Assembly (NCBI GenBank): GCA_018667995.1
Contig: JABIQT010000523.1
Span: forward strand, 1 to 9,030
DNA length: 9,030 nt
Reading direction: 5' to 3'
Source: Candidatus Latescibacterota bacterium
GTDB taxonomy: Bacteria; JAAXHH01; JABIQT01
In this document: positions 2,603 through 9,030 of the stretch, piece after piece
Numbering within the stretch: position 1 is the stretch's first letter
Layout of the letters: each line of letters begins with the position of its first letter
Made by a program: the position numbers and the translations under genes
Notes under the pieces: generated by a model
The model's input: only the letters and a program-made list of their open reading frames with translations
The model's database searches: none
What the model was told of the DNA's origin: nothing

Positions 2603-4210
2603 TTAAATACTCATTTTCGTGAGGTTCCAATGTTCCACGGCGATTGTCAGCACGGTACGCGTGAAGAAATGGACTGTGACAAGGCCAGCCGCTGCTCCGG
2701 AAAGCAGGGTAAGAGCACCATCGAGCAGTGGACCTGTTCCTACTATGATAAAGACTATAGAAAGTACGATGAGCACGCCGTACGTGCCAAACTGTGCGGG
2801 TTTGATTTGTTCCAGAGCCGCTATGCAGGCGTTGCGGGGATTGCCTTCGTCAACCAAGGCATCCCGAAGTCGCTCAAATAGGTATATGTGCAGGCCAGCG
2901 AAGACGAGAAGAGATAATGCAATGCTGACCAGACTGGATAGTGTTAGAAGTGGCGTGATGCCTGAGATTATGCAAAGGCGCAGAAACATACCAGTCATCA
3001 GGAGCTGGAAGAAAATGGCGAGCACGGCGACCAGCCCCGTTCCCTTGTATGCTATGATGAATACCATGGCAAGGAGTAGCAACGCGATCAGACCACTTCG
3101 TAAACCATTCCATGGCGAGGTGTCAGATCCCTGCAATCGAGCCGGAACAGCTTCACTACTGGCGAGGGTGACCTTAGCAGGTAACTCGCCAGATGAGAGC
3201 GCGGTAGCTAATATCCGGGCCTCAGCGATTGTGGATCCCCCCGGAATCTCAGTCCGCCCATCAGATATTCGTCCCTGAATGGGTAGAGTCATGAGAATTT
3301 CGTCATTAAGGGTGGTGGCCAGGCGCTTGCCCACATTTGCACTGGAAATCGTCGTTAGATCCTCCCGACCGGCATCATTCAATAGAACCCGCACCGCGAA
3401 AGGCGCGCGGTCCGCCGTCATGTCCGAAGCTTCACCAACCTGGGCAGTCTCTAACGGAGAGGCTACCAGATCTGGATCGCGATTTACCACGTACAGTGGA
3501 TGATAGAGTTTTCCGTTTCTTTCTACTGGCACTGGAGACCATACAAATTTAGCAGCGGGAGGATTAGCACGGTTGAACGCTCGGATCGATTTCTGTACAG
3601 AAGTATCTGCCAGCATGGACCGAACATCGGCAAGGGCATCATCCTCTACGACGATATCAGCGATGCCCTCGTCGATAATCAAGCTTGCGAGCCGATCACT
3701 GAAGGGGCGAACATTAATCACCTGTCCCGTGGAATCAACTACGGGTGGTGCGAGAGCGCCATCAATTCTCTCGCGAAGTCGCTGTACTTCGTCTCCGCTC
3801 TTGAATAATCGGAATGACAGGCGTCCGTTGTGGGTGAGAAGCGTTCGAATCATAGCCGTATCGGCACTCACGGGTACCCTAGCCTCAATGCTTTGCTCGC
3901 TGATCTTTGTCACGCCAAACTCGATTATACCTATGCCATCGAGCCTGGCGCGAAGTATGCGGATGGTTTCATCCACCGCGTTGTTTCTGCCCCTCTCATT
4001 CAGAGTATTTGTGTCGACATCCAATACGAGCTGGTATCCTCCCACCAGGTCCAGACCAGGAACGGAAGCCATTTGCATAAGGTTAGAAGGATTCTCGGCT
4101 TCGGACATCCCAAGCTGTGGAAGAATCCAGAGACGGGCAGTGGGATACACAAGGACAAAACCCAGCCACGTAAGTAACAACAGAACAATGATATTCAGAC
4201 GAGGTAAAAT
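2603..4210 (-). CDS. secD: Protein translocase subunit SecD (divergent; probable ATT start)
   Basis: Inner-membrane Sec accessory subunit that, with SecF, helps preproteins leave the SecYEG channel. From the proposed start it has 535 residues: TM1 (about 5-22), GLDLVGG (52-58, family GLDLxGG), a long extracytoplasmic region including ILRARLDGIGI (84-94) and the head-like stretch with GGSTIAEARILATALSSGELPAK split over 324-346, then TM2-TM6 at about 372-390, 393-412, 421-445, 476-494 and 500-521. FERLRD (445-450) matches the family FERIRE. The canonical VDANVLIFERIRE is here AGLHIYLFERLRD, so the proton-relay Asp is Gly439 and the Asn is His441. No ATG lies near the N-terminus. ATT at 4208-4210 sits 8 nt from a perfect AGGAGG and gives a proper basic-then-hydrophobic N-terminus (LPRLNIIVLLLL). 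A TTG at 4178-4180 is the next candidate but would cut into TM1. It ends TAA, 2 nt before the SecF-like gene. Confidence 0.82.
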   Translation of the reverse strand: MLPRLNIIVLLLLTWLGFVLVYPTARLWILPQLGMSEAENPSNLMQMASVPGLDLVGGYQLVLDVDTNTLNERGRNNAVDETIRILRARLDGIGIIEFGVTKISEQSIEARVPVSADTAMIRTLLTHNGRLSFRLFKSGDEVQRLRERIDGALAPPVVDSTGQVINVRPFSDRLASLIIDEGIADIVVEDDALADVRSMLADTSVQKSIRAFNRANPPAAKFVWSPVPVERNGKLYHPLYVVNRDPDLVASPLETAQVGEASDMTADRAPFAVRVLLNDAGREDLTTISSANVGKRLATTLNDEILMTLPIQGRISDGRTEIPGGSTIAEARILATALSSGELPAKVTLASSEAVPARLQGSDTSPWNGLRSGLIALLLLAMVFIIAYKGTGLVAVLAIFFQLLMTGMFLRLCIISGITPLLTLSSLVSIALSLLVFAGLHIYLFERLRDALVDEGNPRNACIAALEQIKPAQFGTYGVLIVLSIVFIIVGTGPLLDGALTLLSGAAAGLVTVHFFTRTVLTIAVEHWNLTKMSI

Positions 4211-4218
4211 AGTGTGTT

Positions 4219-4224
4219 CCTCCT
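4219..4224 (-). promoter_or_regulatory. Shine-Dalgarno AGGAGG deciding the secD start
   Basis: The minus strand reads TAGGAGG, so the perfect AGGAGG shares bases with the pdxJ stop codon TAG (4223-4225). Eight bases separate it from ATT at 4208-4210, an ideal distance. The nearest conventional alternatives are CTG (4196-4198) and TTG (4178-4180), at 20 and 38 nt, which is too far. It is much the strongest ribosome binding site seen in the window; the other genes have weak sites or rely on overlap. Confidence 0.75.
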
Positions 4225-4978
4225 ACTCCCCTGGACCTTTGGGAGCATGTCGAATAATTCCGATCATATCCCTTACCGCCCGTTCGAAGCCAATTGAAAG
4301 TGCCTTTGACATAACCGAATGACCAACGACCGCCTCTTCTACTTCACGCATAGCGGCGACTTCCTGGATTGTCTGATAATTGAGGCCTCGCCCTACCGAC
4401 ACTCCCATATTGAGCCTCGCCGCCACGGTAGCAGTACTTGCCAGATCATTGACGGTCTGCTGTTCCGTAACCGCGTTCTCGGATGTGACATATTGGGTCG
4501 CATCAATGTGCACATAGTCGGCATGTAACTGCGAGCAATAGCGGACGTCCGTTGCAGATGGTCTGATCAGCATATTTACGAGAATATTCTGTTCTTTCAT
4601 GACCGATATCGTACGGTCGAGAGATCGTCCTGATGGATCTGACTCCGGCCAGTTGGTGTTAACCCAATCCATACTCAATCCCGCGCTCCTGTATCCAGTA
4701 GGGACGAGAGTGACCATATCGGGCTGAATCGCAAGAATCTGCTGAACGATCTCATCTGTCGGCGTTACGATAAGGTTCAGGTGGGCCTGGACGATTTGCC
4801 GGATCAACACGTATTCGTGGACCTGAAACGACTGCTCGTCGCTTAGCCACGAGGCGCTAACACCCTCGGCTCCACCTATTTGTGCCAGCACTGCTGCTGC
4901 CAAAGGATCGGGCTCGCTCCGTTCAGTAACCTGGCGAATCGCGGCCACATGGTCGATGTTGATGTTCAATTTCAGCAT
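4223..4978 (-). CDS. pdxJ: PdxJ-family protein (pyridoxine 5'-phosphate synthase fold) lacking the catalytic residues
   Basis: A 251-residue protein whose family is clear from LNINIDHVAAIRQ (4-16), PDPLAAA (23-29), VTLVP (89-93), GRGLNY (196-201) and VVGHS (217-221). Genuine PdxJ condenses 1-deoxyxylulose 5-phosphate with 3-amino-2-oxopropyl phosphate to make pyridoxine phosphate. Aligned without gaps to the E. coli enzyme through residue 70, His45 becomes Ser43, Arg47 becomes Leu45, His52 becomes Ser50 and Glu72 becomes Ile70. Near the C-terminal end, catalytic His193 becomes Arg197. Arg20 aligns with Thr18, and the HTG phosphate-side segment reads DAT (159-161). Retained are N7, D9, H10 and the GH pair at 219-220. 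The barrel fold is therefore likely kept, but vitamin B6 synthesis by the known mechanism is doubtful. ATG 4976-4978 matches the family's N-terminus and lies 12 nt after the deacetylase-like gene. It could be a pseudoenzyme or an enzyme with a new substrate. Confidence 0.85.
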   Translation of the reverse strand: MLKLNINIDHVAAIRQVTERSEPDPLAAAVLAQIGGAEGVSASWLSDEQSFQVHEYVLIRQIVQAHLNLIVTPTDEIVQQILAIQPDMVTLVPTGYRSAGLSMDWVNTNWPESDPSGRSLDRTISVMKEQNILVNMLIRPSATDVRYCSQLHADYVHIDATQYVTSENAVTEQQTVNDLASTATVAARLNMGVSVGRGLNYQTIQEVAAMREVEEAVVGHSVMSKALSIGFERAVRDMIGIIRHAPKGPGE

Positions 4979-4990
4979 GAAGTACGCGGG

Positions 4991-6235
4991 CTACCGCTTT
5001 TCCTTTCCTTGCGTGACCAATGATGAAGCGTGTACAAACTGGATTCCGCGAAGGGCAAGCAACTGCATCCGATCCTCGAGCACCGCCAGCGTATTCGGAC
5101 GGGCATGGGCAATTACAATCACCGGTCCCTCCTCAAGCGCGGTGAATGAAGCCTGATCGAGCACCGCAGCGATCCGTTCCTGATTATCGTCCGTATCCAC
5201 AATGCCCCACGCAGAGCCGCTGGGCACGGCCAATTGTCCTGCGGTCTTAATCGCGACTGACTTTTCAGACGACCGGCTATCAATGAAGAAACGCCGACTC
5301 TTCTTCACCTCGCCCAGCACTACCTCCATGATTTCACTGTGGGCGGTGGCCCGACCTCCCATGAAATTCTTGAACCCTCCGGCCATAGGTAGCACAGATA
5401 TGGCCTCCCTTACTACACGCCTGTTTTCGGCGACGGACTGGTTGACCAAGATAGCGGGTCTACCGGGAGAAATCCTCGGGTAATTAACCGGCTCCATTGG
5501 TAGATTCACCAGCACTTCCTGGTCCCGTTCGGCTACTGACACCCCCCATTTTCTGCCAGCGCCACGCCAGGGGTTGATCGAAAATGTCAGTGGTCGGTCT
5601 ATCCCAATGAACTGCGTAGCGACATCAGTCCTGCTTACCTCCAGGTCATTGATCACAATGGCCATGTGGCCAACTTTGTGAAATATAGTCTCGTCGGGAA
5701 TGAGTGTAAGCCGATGAGTAACCGTCTGCCCAAAACCGACCTGAAGAGATAGTTGTTTGCTCCTGCTGGCTTCTACTGCGCTTATGATCCGCCCGCCAAC
5801 CTCGGACACTGAGCGGTCTATCTCGAGATTGCTCTGTGACGTAGCATAAAAGTCTGAGACTCGCAATATCCTCTCGACCGGCTGGGGCTTATCGTCAATT
5901 GCCGAGACCCGGGGTCGAGATTCCCGAACCTGATCTGGACCGATCTGAAGATTCGTCATAGCCCGTGCGATAGCAAAATCGATGTCCCTGAATCTTTCCT
6001 GTGCCGATTTGTAGGCGGCCGTCTGAGGATCGTTACCCGAAACAAGCGTTACGTCTCTGTTGAGCATCCAGCCTAGGCCAGGTAACGGGCCTAATCCGAA
6101 AATAACCCCCCCCGCTCCCCAGACTACGACCGTGAACAGACCCAGTCCAGCAGCAATACGTCGCAGAGGCATATCAGGGGGTTTGGCCGAAGCTTCCATG
6201 GACCGGCGGATTTCATGTGATCGGCGATATCGCAT
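4991..6235 (-). CDS. Divergent polysaccharide deacetylase family protein (YibQ-like), membrane-anchored, probably altered active site
   Basis: A 414-residue protein with a basic N-terminus and one membrane helix (about 27-48), then a linker region (about 60-185) and a C-terminal domain of the divergent polysaccharide deacetylase family (about 190-405), probably extracytoplasmic. Family landmarks: MAIVINDLEV (191-200, family IvIDDLG), VNLPMEP (243-249, family LHLPMEP), KNFMGGRAT (289-297, family NNHMGSR.T), FIDSRSS (317-323), DTDD (347-350) and VIAHARP (374-380, family IGHP). The first Asp of the DD pair is Asn196, the His before LPMEP is Asn244, and the His of NHMG is Phe291; Asp197, Asp319 and His377 remain. 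Deacetylation of a glycan is therefore uncertain. ATG 6233-6235 is 4 nt after rsmA; an in-frame ATG at residue 13 is possible. The usual E. coli member is secreted and of unclear function. Family call is firm, activity unknown. Confidence 0.85.
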   Translation of the reverse strand: MRYRRSHEIRRSMEASAKPPDMPLRRIAAGLGLFTVVVWGAGGVIFGLGPLPGLGWMLNRDVTLVSGNDPQTAAYKSAQERFRDIDFAIARAMTNLQIGPDQVRESRPRVSAIDDKPQPVERILRVSDFYATSQSNLEIDRSVSEVGGRIISAVEASRSKQLSLQVGFGQTVTHRLTLIPDETIFHKVGHMAIVINDLEVSRTDVATQFIGIDRPLTFSINPWRGAGRKWGVSVAERDQEVLVNLPMEPVNYPRISPGRPAILVNQSVAENRRVVREAISVLPMAGGFKNFMGGRATAHSEIMEVVLGEVKKSRRFFIDSRSSEKSVAIKTAGQLAVPSGSAWGIVDTDDNQERIAAVLDQASFTALEEGPVIVIAHARPNTLAVLEDRMQLLALRGIQFVHASSLVTQGKEKR

Positions 6236-6239
6236 GCCC

Positions 6240-7067
6240 TTACTGAAGTCCCGAGTTTCGGAGCGTATCTGTCAGCGTGGCAAATTCCGCGAGTGAAAGG
6301 GTCTCGGCGCGTCGACTCAGGTCGAGACCCGATCCCTGCATAACCCTCTGCGCACTCCCAGGAAGCATACGGTTCACTGCATGGTGCAGCATCTTGCGTC
6401 TGTGCTGAAACGAGGCCTTTATCACCCGAACCAGCAGGGCATCATCACAGACCTCAACAGGAGGCTCACGGTAGGGAACGAGGCGCAGTACAGTAGATTG
6501 AATGGAAGGCTGCGGCCGAAAATTCGCTGGTGAAACGCGGAACAGCCGTTCCACCTTGTAAGCGTATCCAACTATGGCAGTTAATGCACCGTATATTTTA
6601 TTGCCAGGCTCGGCCGATAGGCGCAGGCCAACTTCCTCCTGCGTCATCATCACAACGGTCTCGATACTATCCCGAAACTGCAGCAACCGCTCAATAACCG
6701 GCCCTGTTATATTATATGGGATGTTTCCTATGACTCGCATCCGCCTGCCATCGTATTGGCTGCTGACGTAAGACAGGTCCAATCCGAGTATATCCTCGTG
6801 GAGTAGCGTAAGGTTAGATTCAGAGCCCAGCTCTCTCTGGAGCAACTCTACCAGGCCGGAGTCGATCTCAACGGCGACTACCTGGTGCGCCAGCTCCACC
6901 AGCCTCCTGGTCAGGATTCCCTTGCCCGCACCGATTTCGAGCGCAATTGAATCGTCAGATATCCCGACGCTTTCTACAATGCGATCGGCTACGGATTCAT
7001 TTACCAGGAAGTTCTGACCGAGGGACTTTTTTGCACGTATTTTCCTGCGGCGCATAGCATCTACCAT
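6240..7067 (-). CDS. rsmA: 16S rRNA (adenine(1518)-N6/adenine(1519)-N6)-dimethyltransferase RsmA/KsgA
   Basis: Cytoplasmic SAM-dependent methyltransferase that dimethylates two adjacent adenosines in the 3'-terminal helix of 16S rRNA late in 30S assembly; its loss classically gives kasugamycin resistance. The 275 residues match the family's length. Motifs: KKSLGQNFL (13-21), SAM-binding EIGAGKG (44-50), the acidic ribose ligand in VAVEID (64-69), catalytic NIPYNI (115-120), VSPANFRPQP (178-187), FQHRRKML (220-227) and RAETLSLAEFATL (253-265). All key positions look intact. Start ATG 7065-7067; a second in-frame ATG at 7053-7055 (residue 5) is equally acceptable, and neither has a clear Shine-Dalgarno. 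It is the first gene after the predicted promoter in the gap and heads the apparent operon with the deacetylase-like gene 4 nt downstream. Confidence 0.97.
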   Translation of the reverse strand: MVDAMRRRKIRAKKSLGQNFLVNESVADRIVESVGISDDSIALEIGAGKGILTRRLVELAHQVVAVEIDSGLVELLQRELGSESNLTLLHEDILGLDLSYVSSQYDGRRMRVIGNIPYNITGPVIERLLQFRDSIETVVMMTQEEVGLRLSAEPGNKIYGALTAIVGYAYKVERLFRVSPANFRPQPSIQSTVLRLVPYREPPVEVCDDALLVRVIKASFQHRRKMLHHAVNRMLPGSAQRVMQGSGLDLSRRAETLSLAEFATLTDTLRNSGLQ

Positions 7068-7179: not shown

Positions 7180-7977
7180 TCAAGCGGGTAGATTAAAGAC
7201 GGTTCGGGCGTTCTGCGTAGTGATCTGTGCGAGCTCCTCAAAGGTAATATTCAAGAGCCGTGCCACAGTCTCCGCGGTGTGCACAACACGGGCCGGTTCG
7301 TTTCGACGACCACGGAAGGGATGTGGAGAAAGATAGGGGGAGTCGGTCTCGATCAGCAATTGGTCGGATGGAATGGCGTTGATCACATTTCCGAGCGATA
7401 CATTCTTGAAAGTCACGATTCCACCAAATCCGAGGTAGTACCCAGCGCGCGCTGCCACCGTAGCCATAACTTCGTCTCCGCTAAAGCAGTGAAGTACGAC
7501 GCCAGCGCTGGCATCCTCTTCATTTAACACCGACAATACGGCATCGTGAGCATCACGATCGTGGACGACCACTGGTAAATCGGTGCTACGGGCGAGACGT
7601 ATGTGTTGCCGAAAGAAGTCTATCTGTGTGTCAACGGCGGACGTGTCCCAATGAAAATCGAGTCCGGTCTCACCGATGCCAACCACCCTTGGGTGATCGG
7701 CGATTCTTGATATTTCCTCGAAATCGGCATCCTTCGCATCGCTTACCTCACCAGGATGGATGCCAACTGTGGCATAGATATTGTTGTATTTTTCGGCGAG
7801 GGCAATGGCGGCCAGACTGGTCTCGACATTCATACCAATGGCGACGATACTGGAAACCCCAGCCTCAAGGGCACGATTAATCACGGCCTCGCGATCTTCA
7901 TCGTACTCTGAGACCATGATATGGGCGTGGGTATCTATAAGATCATAATGAGTTGCGGTGTGCAATGGTTCATCCAC
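7180..7977 (-). CDS. tatD: TatD family metal-dependent hydrolase / DNase
   Basis: TIM-barrel metallohydrolase of 265 residues, the normal size for the family, thought to act as a 3'-5' exonuclease in DNA quality control; exact roles vary between members. The metal ligands all appear: HxH in DTHAH (15-19), Glu103 in GIGETGLDF, His139 in VVVHDRDAH, His163 in VLHCFSG and Asp212 in LIETDSPYL. The RGRRNEP signature (222-228) follows. The start is GTG 7975-7977; the first in-frame ATG (residue 21) would remove the HxH motif, and a TTG at residue 5 is an alternative. It begins 3 nt after the metG stop, an arrangement (metG then tatD, often followed by rsmA) that is common in bacteria. Ends TGA. Confidence 0.95.
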   Translation of the reverse strand: MDEPLHTATHYDLIDTHAHIMVSEYDEDREAVINRALEAGVSSIVAIGMNVETSLAAIALAEKYNNIYATVGIHPGEVSDAKDADFEEISRIADHPRVVGIGETGLDFHWDTSAVDTQIDFFRQHIRLARSTDLPVVVHDRDAHDAVLSVLNEEDASAGVVLHCFSGDEVMATVAARAGYYLGFGGIVTFKNVSLGNVINAIPSDQLLIETDSPYLSPHPFRGRRNEPARVVHTAETVARLLNITFEELAQITTQNARTVFNLPA

Positions 7978-7980
7978 GAT

Positions 7981-9030
7981 CTACTTTACCCGGGCGCCAG
8001 AGTTCACACCCTCATCAGGCCGAAGCAGGATCGGTTGCTCTTGATCATTGGTTGCGGCGAGAAGCATGCCTTGTGACTCGACCCCCCTGATGGTCGCCGG
8101 TTCCAGATTCGCCAACACCACGATCTGCCGGCCTATCAACTGATCCGGTTCGTATTGCTGGGCAATACCTGCCACGATTTGCCGTTCCTCGGCACCTATA
8201 CGGATTTTCAACTGGAGCAAACGATCCGCCTTGGGGACTTTTTCGGCAGAGACAATCTCAGCAATACGTATGTCCAATTCCTGAAAATCGGAAAAGCTAA
8301 TCGTATCGGTTTCCTCGTTTGCGGCCACGGTGCTCTCAGTCACATTTGCCTCCAGAGTCCCAGCTCCGAGCTTGGCGATCTGTGCCTCCACCACTTCATC
8401 GTCAATCTTTGTGAACAGAATTTCCGGCGTACCGAGAACGTGCCCGGCCTTCACTTCTGGTTCTGCGCCCCGATCCCAATGCTGCTGATCCACGGTACCT
8501 TCCAGCTGGAGCATGGACCAGATCTTCGCTGCTGAGAAGGGGAGCACAGGTGCCATTATGATAGCCAGCGATCGTACGGCCTGTGCACATACATACAGCG
8601 TGCAGGCGCATCTTTCCGGCGCAGTCTTCCTCGTCTTCCAAGGCTCTTGATCGTTAAAGTATTTGTTCAGATGGTTTCCAAGAATCACGTATTCACGGAC
8701 GGCGGCCCGAACCTGGAATCTCTCGAAGTGATCACCAATGGCCTCTTTGGCCGTGACCAGTTTTGCCAGGATGTCGCGATCCTCTTCGTTCAAATCAACC
8801 GGTTCAGGAACGACACCTTCATGGTATCTGCCGATAAAAGTAAGACTGCGATTGATGAAATTTCCGAATATATCTGCGAGTTCATTATTGTTTCTGGATT
8901 GAAAATCACGCCAAGCGAAATCCGAATCTTTGGATTCCGGTGCGATCGAAGCCAAATAGTACCGAAGCGGATCTGGCGAAAACTCTTCGAGAAACTCATC
9001 AAGCCAAACGGCCCAGTTTCTACTCGTGGA
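7981..9030 (-). CDS. metG: Methionine--tRNA ligase MetG, C-terminal part (5' end outside window)
   Basis: The last 349 residues of methionyl-tRNA synthetase, which charges tRNA-Met in the cytoplasm. The window opens inside the KMSKS loop, which reads STSRNWAVW at the edge, so the Lys of the second K position appears as Thr, as in some bacterial and archaeal-like forms. Next come RYYLASIAPESKDSDFAW (about 23-40), the anticodon-binding helical domain with RNNNELADIFGNF (46-58), NKYFNDQEPWK (122-132) where the anticodon contacts lie, and, after a variable linker (about 215-243), a fused Trbp111/EMAP-like tRNA-binding domain (about 246-349) with FQELDIRIAEI and KADRLLQLKI. No in-frame ATG near the edge is the start: TTG at 8953-8955 is an internal leucine of RYYL. 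Stop TAG 7981-7983. Confidence 0.96.
   Translation of the reverse strand, partial: STSRNWAVWLDEFLEEFSPDPLRYYLASIAPESKDSDFAWRDFQSRNNNELADIFGNFINRSLTFIGRYHEGVVPEPVDLNEEDRDILAKLVTAKEAIGDHFERFQVRAAVREYVILGNHLNKYFNDQEPWKTRKTAPERCACTLYVCAQAVRSLAIIMAPVLPFSAAKIWSMLQLEGTVDQQHWDRGAEPEVKAGHVLGTPEILFTKIDDEVVEAQIAKLGAGTLEANVTESTVAANEETDTISFSDFQELDIRIAEIVSAEKVPKADRLLQLKIRIGAEERQIVAGIAQQYEPDQLIGRQIVVLANLEPATIRGVESQGMLLAATNDQEQPILLRPDEGVNSGARVK

Follow-up and report, generated by a model that had tools for sequence, protein, structure and literature searches.

A PdxJ paralog without the catalytic residues of PNP synthase is retained in a degenerate envelope operon of Candidatus Latescibacterota

The window, the whole 9,030-nucleotide stretch analysed here, corresponds to contig C1139 in a metagenome-assembled genome of 6.06 Mb (1165 contigs, 85% complete, 4% contamination), and its main genes all lie on the minus strand. 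Read in the direction of transcription, they begin with three conserved upstream neighbours, the 3' part of metG (7981–9030, cut by the contig end), tatD (7180–7977) and rsmA/ksgA (6240–7067), and continue with a divergent polysaccharide deacetylase of the PF04748 (SddA/YibQ) family (4991–6235) and a 251-residue PdxJ paralog (4223–4978), which we call PdxJ2. Downstream lie a SecD-like protein (SecD2, 2603–4180) and a 289-residue SecF-like membrane protein (SecF2, 1761–2630), followed by a LolD-type ABC ATPase with intact Walker A and signature motifs (1006–1755, start approximate) and the first part of a MacB/FtsX-type permease (3–1049), which is cut by the contig end and has a full ortholog in locus L051. 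These last two genes come after secF2 in the window genome and in G013 (L051, 10390–13639), but not elsewhere among the relatives examined.

PdxJ2 is a member of the PdxJ family by homology, as judged by both profile match and fold. Its frame (4978 to 4223) is open, with an ATG start 12 nt past the stop of the upstream gene, and the translation matches Pfam PdxJ (PF03740) over its full length with 162.4 bits, against a cut-off of 24.5. It falls below every NCBIfam PdxJ equivalog cut-off, scoring 158.9 where 190 is required and 124.5 against 192.75 for TIGR00559. The AlphaFold model is a (beta/alpha)8 barrel with a pLDDT of 85.6; PdxJ crystal structures take the first 16 places among its structural matches (TM 0.80–0.92), and the closest folds outside the family are phosphosugar TIM barrels.

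The neighbouring products are degenerate too, since the deacetylase, SecD2 and SecF2 all appear from their sequences to have lost catalytic or ion-coupling residues; the original prediction rightly placed the gene in an envelope-type operon but had not seen this wider loss. SddA, the characterised Escherichia coli enzyme of family PF04748, requires D31/D32, H78 and H123 (PMC12440217). At the zinc-ligand positions, where D, D, H and H are expected, the window deacetylase has N, D, N and F and its counterparts in the 12 genomes of genus g3 have A, Y, L and Y; within the phylum the intact set occurs only in G001 (L040). The window genome encodes a second PF04748 protein with intact zinc ligands (L164, G000:C186, 489–1277, plus strand), and a second copy of this kind was not seen in the relatives searched. 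SecD2 retains a recognisable P1 domain, but the TM4 aspartate of VDANV and the DAN-TT motif are gone in all 15 copies aligned, and its score of 161 bits does not reach the SecD equivalog cut-off of 244. Both the VDANV aspartate and DAN-TT are present in the SecDF fusion that these genomes encode elsewhere. SecF2, with a hhalign value of 97.8% to SecF and four orthologs exceeding the PF02355 cut-off, has a shortened TM1–TM2 periplasmic region and has lost the GYSxND...DRIRE motif in nine of nine sequences. As to the start of secD2, a strong AGGAGG precedes an in-frame ATT at 4210, 10 codons upstream of the TTG at 4180, and ATT is a possible start.

The catalytic residues of E. coli PdxJ are His45, Glu72 and His193. 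We aligned 15 PdxJ2 proteins of the window clade with 42 canonical PdxJs and compared them in E. coli numbering. H45, R47, R51, H52, E72, T102, E153, T156 and H193 are identical in 42/42 canonical sequences, the three catalytic residues among them, and are missing from every one of the 15 clade members; the substrate and phosphate residues R20, R47, H52, T102 and E153 are likewise kept in 0/15. The alignment and the model both agree with the original prediction that the catalytic residues are replaced by S43 (codon 4850–4852), I70 (4769–4771) and R197 (4388–4390), all on the minus strand and each the same in 15/15, and that the phosphate-binding positions 20, 47 and 52 are also altered, to T18, L45 and S50. 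At R51, T102, E153 and T156 the window protein has, in that order, Q49, G100, H157 and A160. In the predicted structure beta2 and beta3 end close to S43 and I70, and beta7 just before R197, so that these residues occupy the catalytic sites; a shifted alignment hiding the true residues was considered and is ruled out by the strand positions and the fold. It had also been claimed that framework motifs are kept; some of these, NIDHVA, GLNY and GHS, are peculiar to the window copy, and most of the clade has VDQVA, GVDY and GYA.

What replaced the lost residues is itself fixed. S43, W44, I70, W110, P111, H157, D159, A160 and R197 occur in 15/15 sequences, a C-terminal IRHAP is a fixed new feature of the clade, and a lengthened active-site loop (residues 95–118; 4625–4696, minus strand) replaces the canonical TTEGGLDV loop, with W105, W110, P111 and R118 invariant and low model confidence. 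Within the clade, 8 of the 13 catalytic or phosphate positions do not vary, and several of these (S43, I70, G100, H157 and R197) have taken on a new state; with D159 nearby, this is the pattern that a new active site would show. The barrel mouth (D9, S43, H157, D159, R197 and the long tryptophan-containing loop) may have been rebuilt to take another substrate, probably a phosphorylated one and perhaps belonging to envelope precursor metabolism, a reading that gains from the invariance of the new strand-end residues in 15/15, from the retention at beta7/beta8 of glycines characteristic of phosphate sites (G198 and G219) and from the phosphosugar barrels found as nearest folds. Nevertheless, we consider such a new enzyme rather unlikely. 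The pocket of canonical PdxJ is the most conserved part of the protein (p=1e-6); when the same excess was sought in the PdxJ2 clade, the pocket was indistinguishable from the rest (p=0.34). Moreover, no PdxJ-like Glu/His acid–base arrangement is left, and the operon partners have lost catalytic residues as well.

Our sample of the phylum comprised 16 genomes from a single order. PdxJ2 is carried by 15 of them and scores 417–505 bits with a clade-specific profile; among 368 genomes of other phyla the highest score was 175 bits, and viral contigs searched with the same profile gave no match. Loss of the gene from the sixteenth genome (G011) was rejected as an artefact, the site lying between two contig ends, with ksgA cut off where contig C153 ends and SecD2 where C337 ends. 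The clade has support of 100/100 and sits among PdxJs that directly follow a PF04748 gene. Gene order metG–tatD–ksgA–deacetylase–pdxJ2–secD2 is conserved in 14 further loci, with secF2 orthologs next, the exceptions being copies truncated at contig ends and the L045 locus, in which tatD was not detected. One of the relatives' loci, L048, is JAPOZT010000008.1, labelled Gemmatimonadetes bacterium IRC1_bin_16 at NCBI.

None of the 15 copies has a stop or frameshift, and pairwise dN/dS among 12 genomes of one genus (g3) gave medians of 0.159 for pdxJ2, 0.113 for canonical pdxJ, 0.178 for tatD, 0.237 for ksgA, 0.194 for secD2 and 0.346 for the deacetylase. Since the replacements are fixed across the clade, the synteny is conserved and dN/dS is low, PdxJ2 is not a decayed copy, and judged on these sequences it is very probably a retained (beta/alpha)8 pseudoenzyme or a protein of new function under purifying selection. 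The faster evolution of the deacetylase (median 0.35) and the parallel loss of several active sites could instead point to a redundant operon, slowly decaying and kept by its position beside the essential metG and ksgA. We regard this as improbable, because pdxJ2 is as constrained as tatD and more so than ksgA, its 15 copies are intact and the new residues W44, W110 and H157 and the IRHAP terminus are fixed.

Vitamin B6 synthesis in these genomes can be accounted for elsewhere. The window genome has a second PdxJ on contig C305, with all catalytic residues present (FNIEG, NAGHDLN), together with PdxA; canonical PdxJ is also found in relatives of the order (partial in two fragmented genomes), PdxA in 15/15 genomes tested, and PdxS, among the phylum genomes tested, in G001 only. 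PdxJ2 and the canonical PdxJ of the same genome share ~20% identity. The presence of a canonical PdxJ elsewhere and of PdxA means that B6 synthesis does not depend on PdxJ2, which, from its sequence, is almost certainly not a PNP synthase. That it might still be one, working by an altered mechanism, would fit the closely similar fold, but we give this little credence given the loss of all three acid–base residues and the phosphate Arg/His residues, the canonical PdxJ in the same genomes and the scores under the NCBIfam equivalog cut-offs. The separate PdxJ and PdxA, with the fixed replacements, synteny and dN/dS, bear out the original prediction that the open frame is selected for some other function and is not decaying. 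The contigs bearing canonical pdxJ, secDF and pdxA resemble the window in GC (0.52–0.54) and tetranucleotide make-up, which argues against contamination, and an assembly or binning artefact or chimeric contig, which a genome 85% complete in 1165 contigs might invite, is negligible as an explanation given that agreement and the repetition of the gene and its order in 14 other assemblies, once on a 2.9 Mb contig.

A second phylum also has a PdxJ without catalytic residues. In 40 genomes centred on G359 (loci L177–L206, L209–L228 and L162), probably Calditrichota, a PdxJ-like protein occurs in 35, as a single copy in 34 and as two fragments in G412, and is the only PdxJ-like protein of its genome. 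In the 29 full-length copies H45 is replaced by Y, T, F or S, E72 by R or H and H193 by G, with E153 mostly kept. PdxS is present in 37/40 of these genomes, on which basis the phylum presumably makes B6 by PdxST. In 21/21 loci the gene has one or two small lipoprotein-like genes next to it, usually with a gene for a GH2-like membrane protein and then SMC downstream. In the tree these proteins group with the window clade at 99/98, and at 94/98 when 44 loss columns are dropped; both lineages have long branches and share only three clear derived residues. The grouping is supported by these sequences, but the losses may have arisen independently, by convergence.

A PF04748 gene is commonly the immediate upstream neighbour of canonical pdxJ in other phyla (L144, L145, L146, L147, L148, L149, L150 and L159), and L145 and L146 have the order deacetylase–pdxJ–secD–secF with canonical PdxJ, SecD and SecF. 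The PdxJ2 clade falls among PdxJs with such an upstream gene in a tree whose deep branches are weak. The simplest history we infer is that an inherited operon yielded its functions to copies elsewhere and afterwards lost its active sites. PdxJ2 would descend from the canonical PdxJ of a deacetylase–pdxJ–secD–secF operon; the B6 role in the phylum would have passed to PdxA and the second PdxJ, whose type is distant (NVNKVALLRN), and protein export to the SecDF fusion encoded elsewhere; the old operon would have been retained, its products subsequently losing catalytic or ion-coupling residues. Deacetylases without zinc ligands also lie directly upstream of canonical pdxJ, at L145 6631–7713, L146 2695–3768 and L149 4204–5148. 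At L091 (G070:C99, 1218–1931, minus strand), a PdxJ with R45, M47 and R193 and with E72 kept is the only PdxJ of its genome and adjoins a split PF04748 gene.

We favour, at a probability of roughly 55%, the explanation that PdxJ2 is a paralog from this old operon that no longer acts as PNP synthase and is now the partner of a repurposed SecDF-like envelope module. The residue losses, the clade, the synteny, the selection and the intact copies elsewhere are direct observations; the origin of the operon, physical association and function are our extrapolation, and only tentatively do we picture PdxJ2 as a cytosolic structural or regulatory partner of a membrane module of SecD2, SecF2 and the inactive deacetylase, possibly sensing a ligand through the glycines kept at beta7–beta8. 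A structural or regulatory subunit fits better than a new enzyme, though not decisively, because constraint is spread over the protein and the partners have lost catalysis or ion coupling. Of the two alternatives first put forward, a pseudoenzyme or an enzyme with a different substrate, the data support the pair, and a pocket that is not the most constrained part leans towards the former. Counting against the favoured explanation are the invariant new-state positions noted above, the SecD tree, whose long branches gave no placement of the origin of SecD2, and the different operon of the second phylum, from which the SecDF link may be phylum-specific or incidental. A more far-reaching proposal, which we put forward as speculative, is that the envelope operon as a whole gave up catalysis and ion coupling in concert, turning into a non-catalytic envelope complex whose cytosolic subunit is a former B6 enzyme, that related PdxJs without catalytic sites play a part in the envelope of at least one other phylum, and that PdxJ pseudoenzymes form a widespread, unrecognised family.

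Papers that mention PdxJ and pseudoenzymes together appear, by title and abstract, to deal with other B6 topics. pdxJ serves as the signature gene of the DXP-dependent B6 pathway and is described as well annotated (PMC9997740), yet a gene named pdxJ does not on its own show that a bacterium makes B6 by the PdxJ route, and the second phylum, with its catalytic-site-less PdxJ beside PdxST, means that catalytic residues need checking before B6 synthesis is inferred. Such a pairing would explain why Caldithrix abyssi is listed among ten genomes with seemingly both pathways, the DXP route being probably incomplete (PMC9997740); Fibrobacter succinogenes is also on that list. The operon also offers a rare natural experiment, in which several genes lose their active sites under continued selection, and intact versions in other lineages are available for comparison with the degenerate one.

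Compared with known systems, PdxJ2 resembles E. coli PdxJ (PF03740; PDB 1M5W/1HO1) in its full-length fold at 25% identity and keeps R17, N70, P95, G192, G194, G215 and G226, but differs in lacking H45, E72, H193, R20, R47, H52, T102 and E153, in its longer active-site loop and in that B6 synthesis in its genomes is independent of it. The PdxJ-like protein of the second phylum shares the absence of H45, E72 and H193, but its replacements differ and its gene follows small lipoprotein-like genes, whereas that of PdxJ2 accompanies secD2 and secF2. The upstream gene belongs to the same family as SddA/YibQ, the PF04748 peptidoglycan strand deacetylases, in which a member without zinc ligands, ATU2773, has already been noted in an envC operon (PMC12440217); the window deacetylase is linked instead to pdxJ2–secD2–secF2. 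The downstream genes fall in the SecD and SecF families (TIGR01129, PF02355) but have lost the conserved transmembrane motifs, SecD2 lying below its equivalog cut-off and SecF2 differing from SecF in its shortened periplasmic region. PDX1.2 is a non-catalytic paralog of the PdxS/SNZ family that acts by joining the active enzyme. Like pseudoenzymes of this type, PdxJ2 is a B6 synthase paralog, probably without catalytic activity, that persists alongside an active enzyme; the PdxS/SNZ family is, however, unrelated to PdxJ, and PdxJ2 and the canonical PdxJ are far apart.
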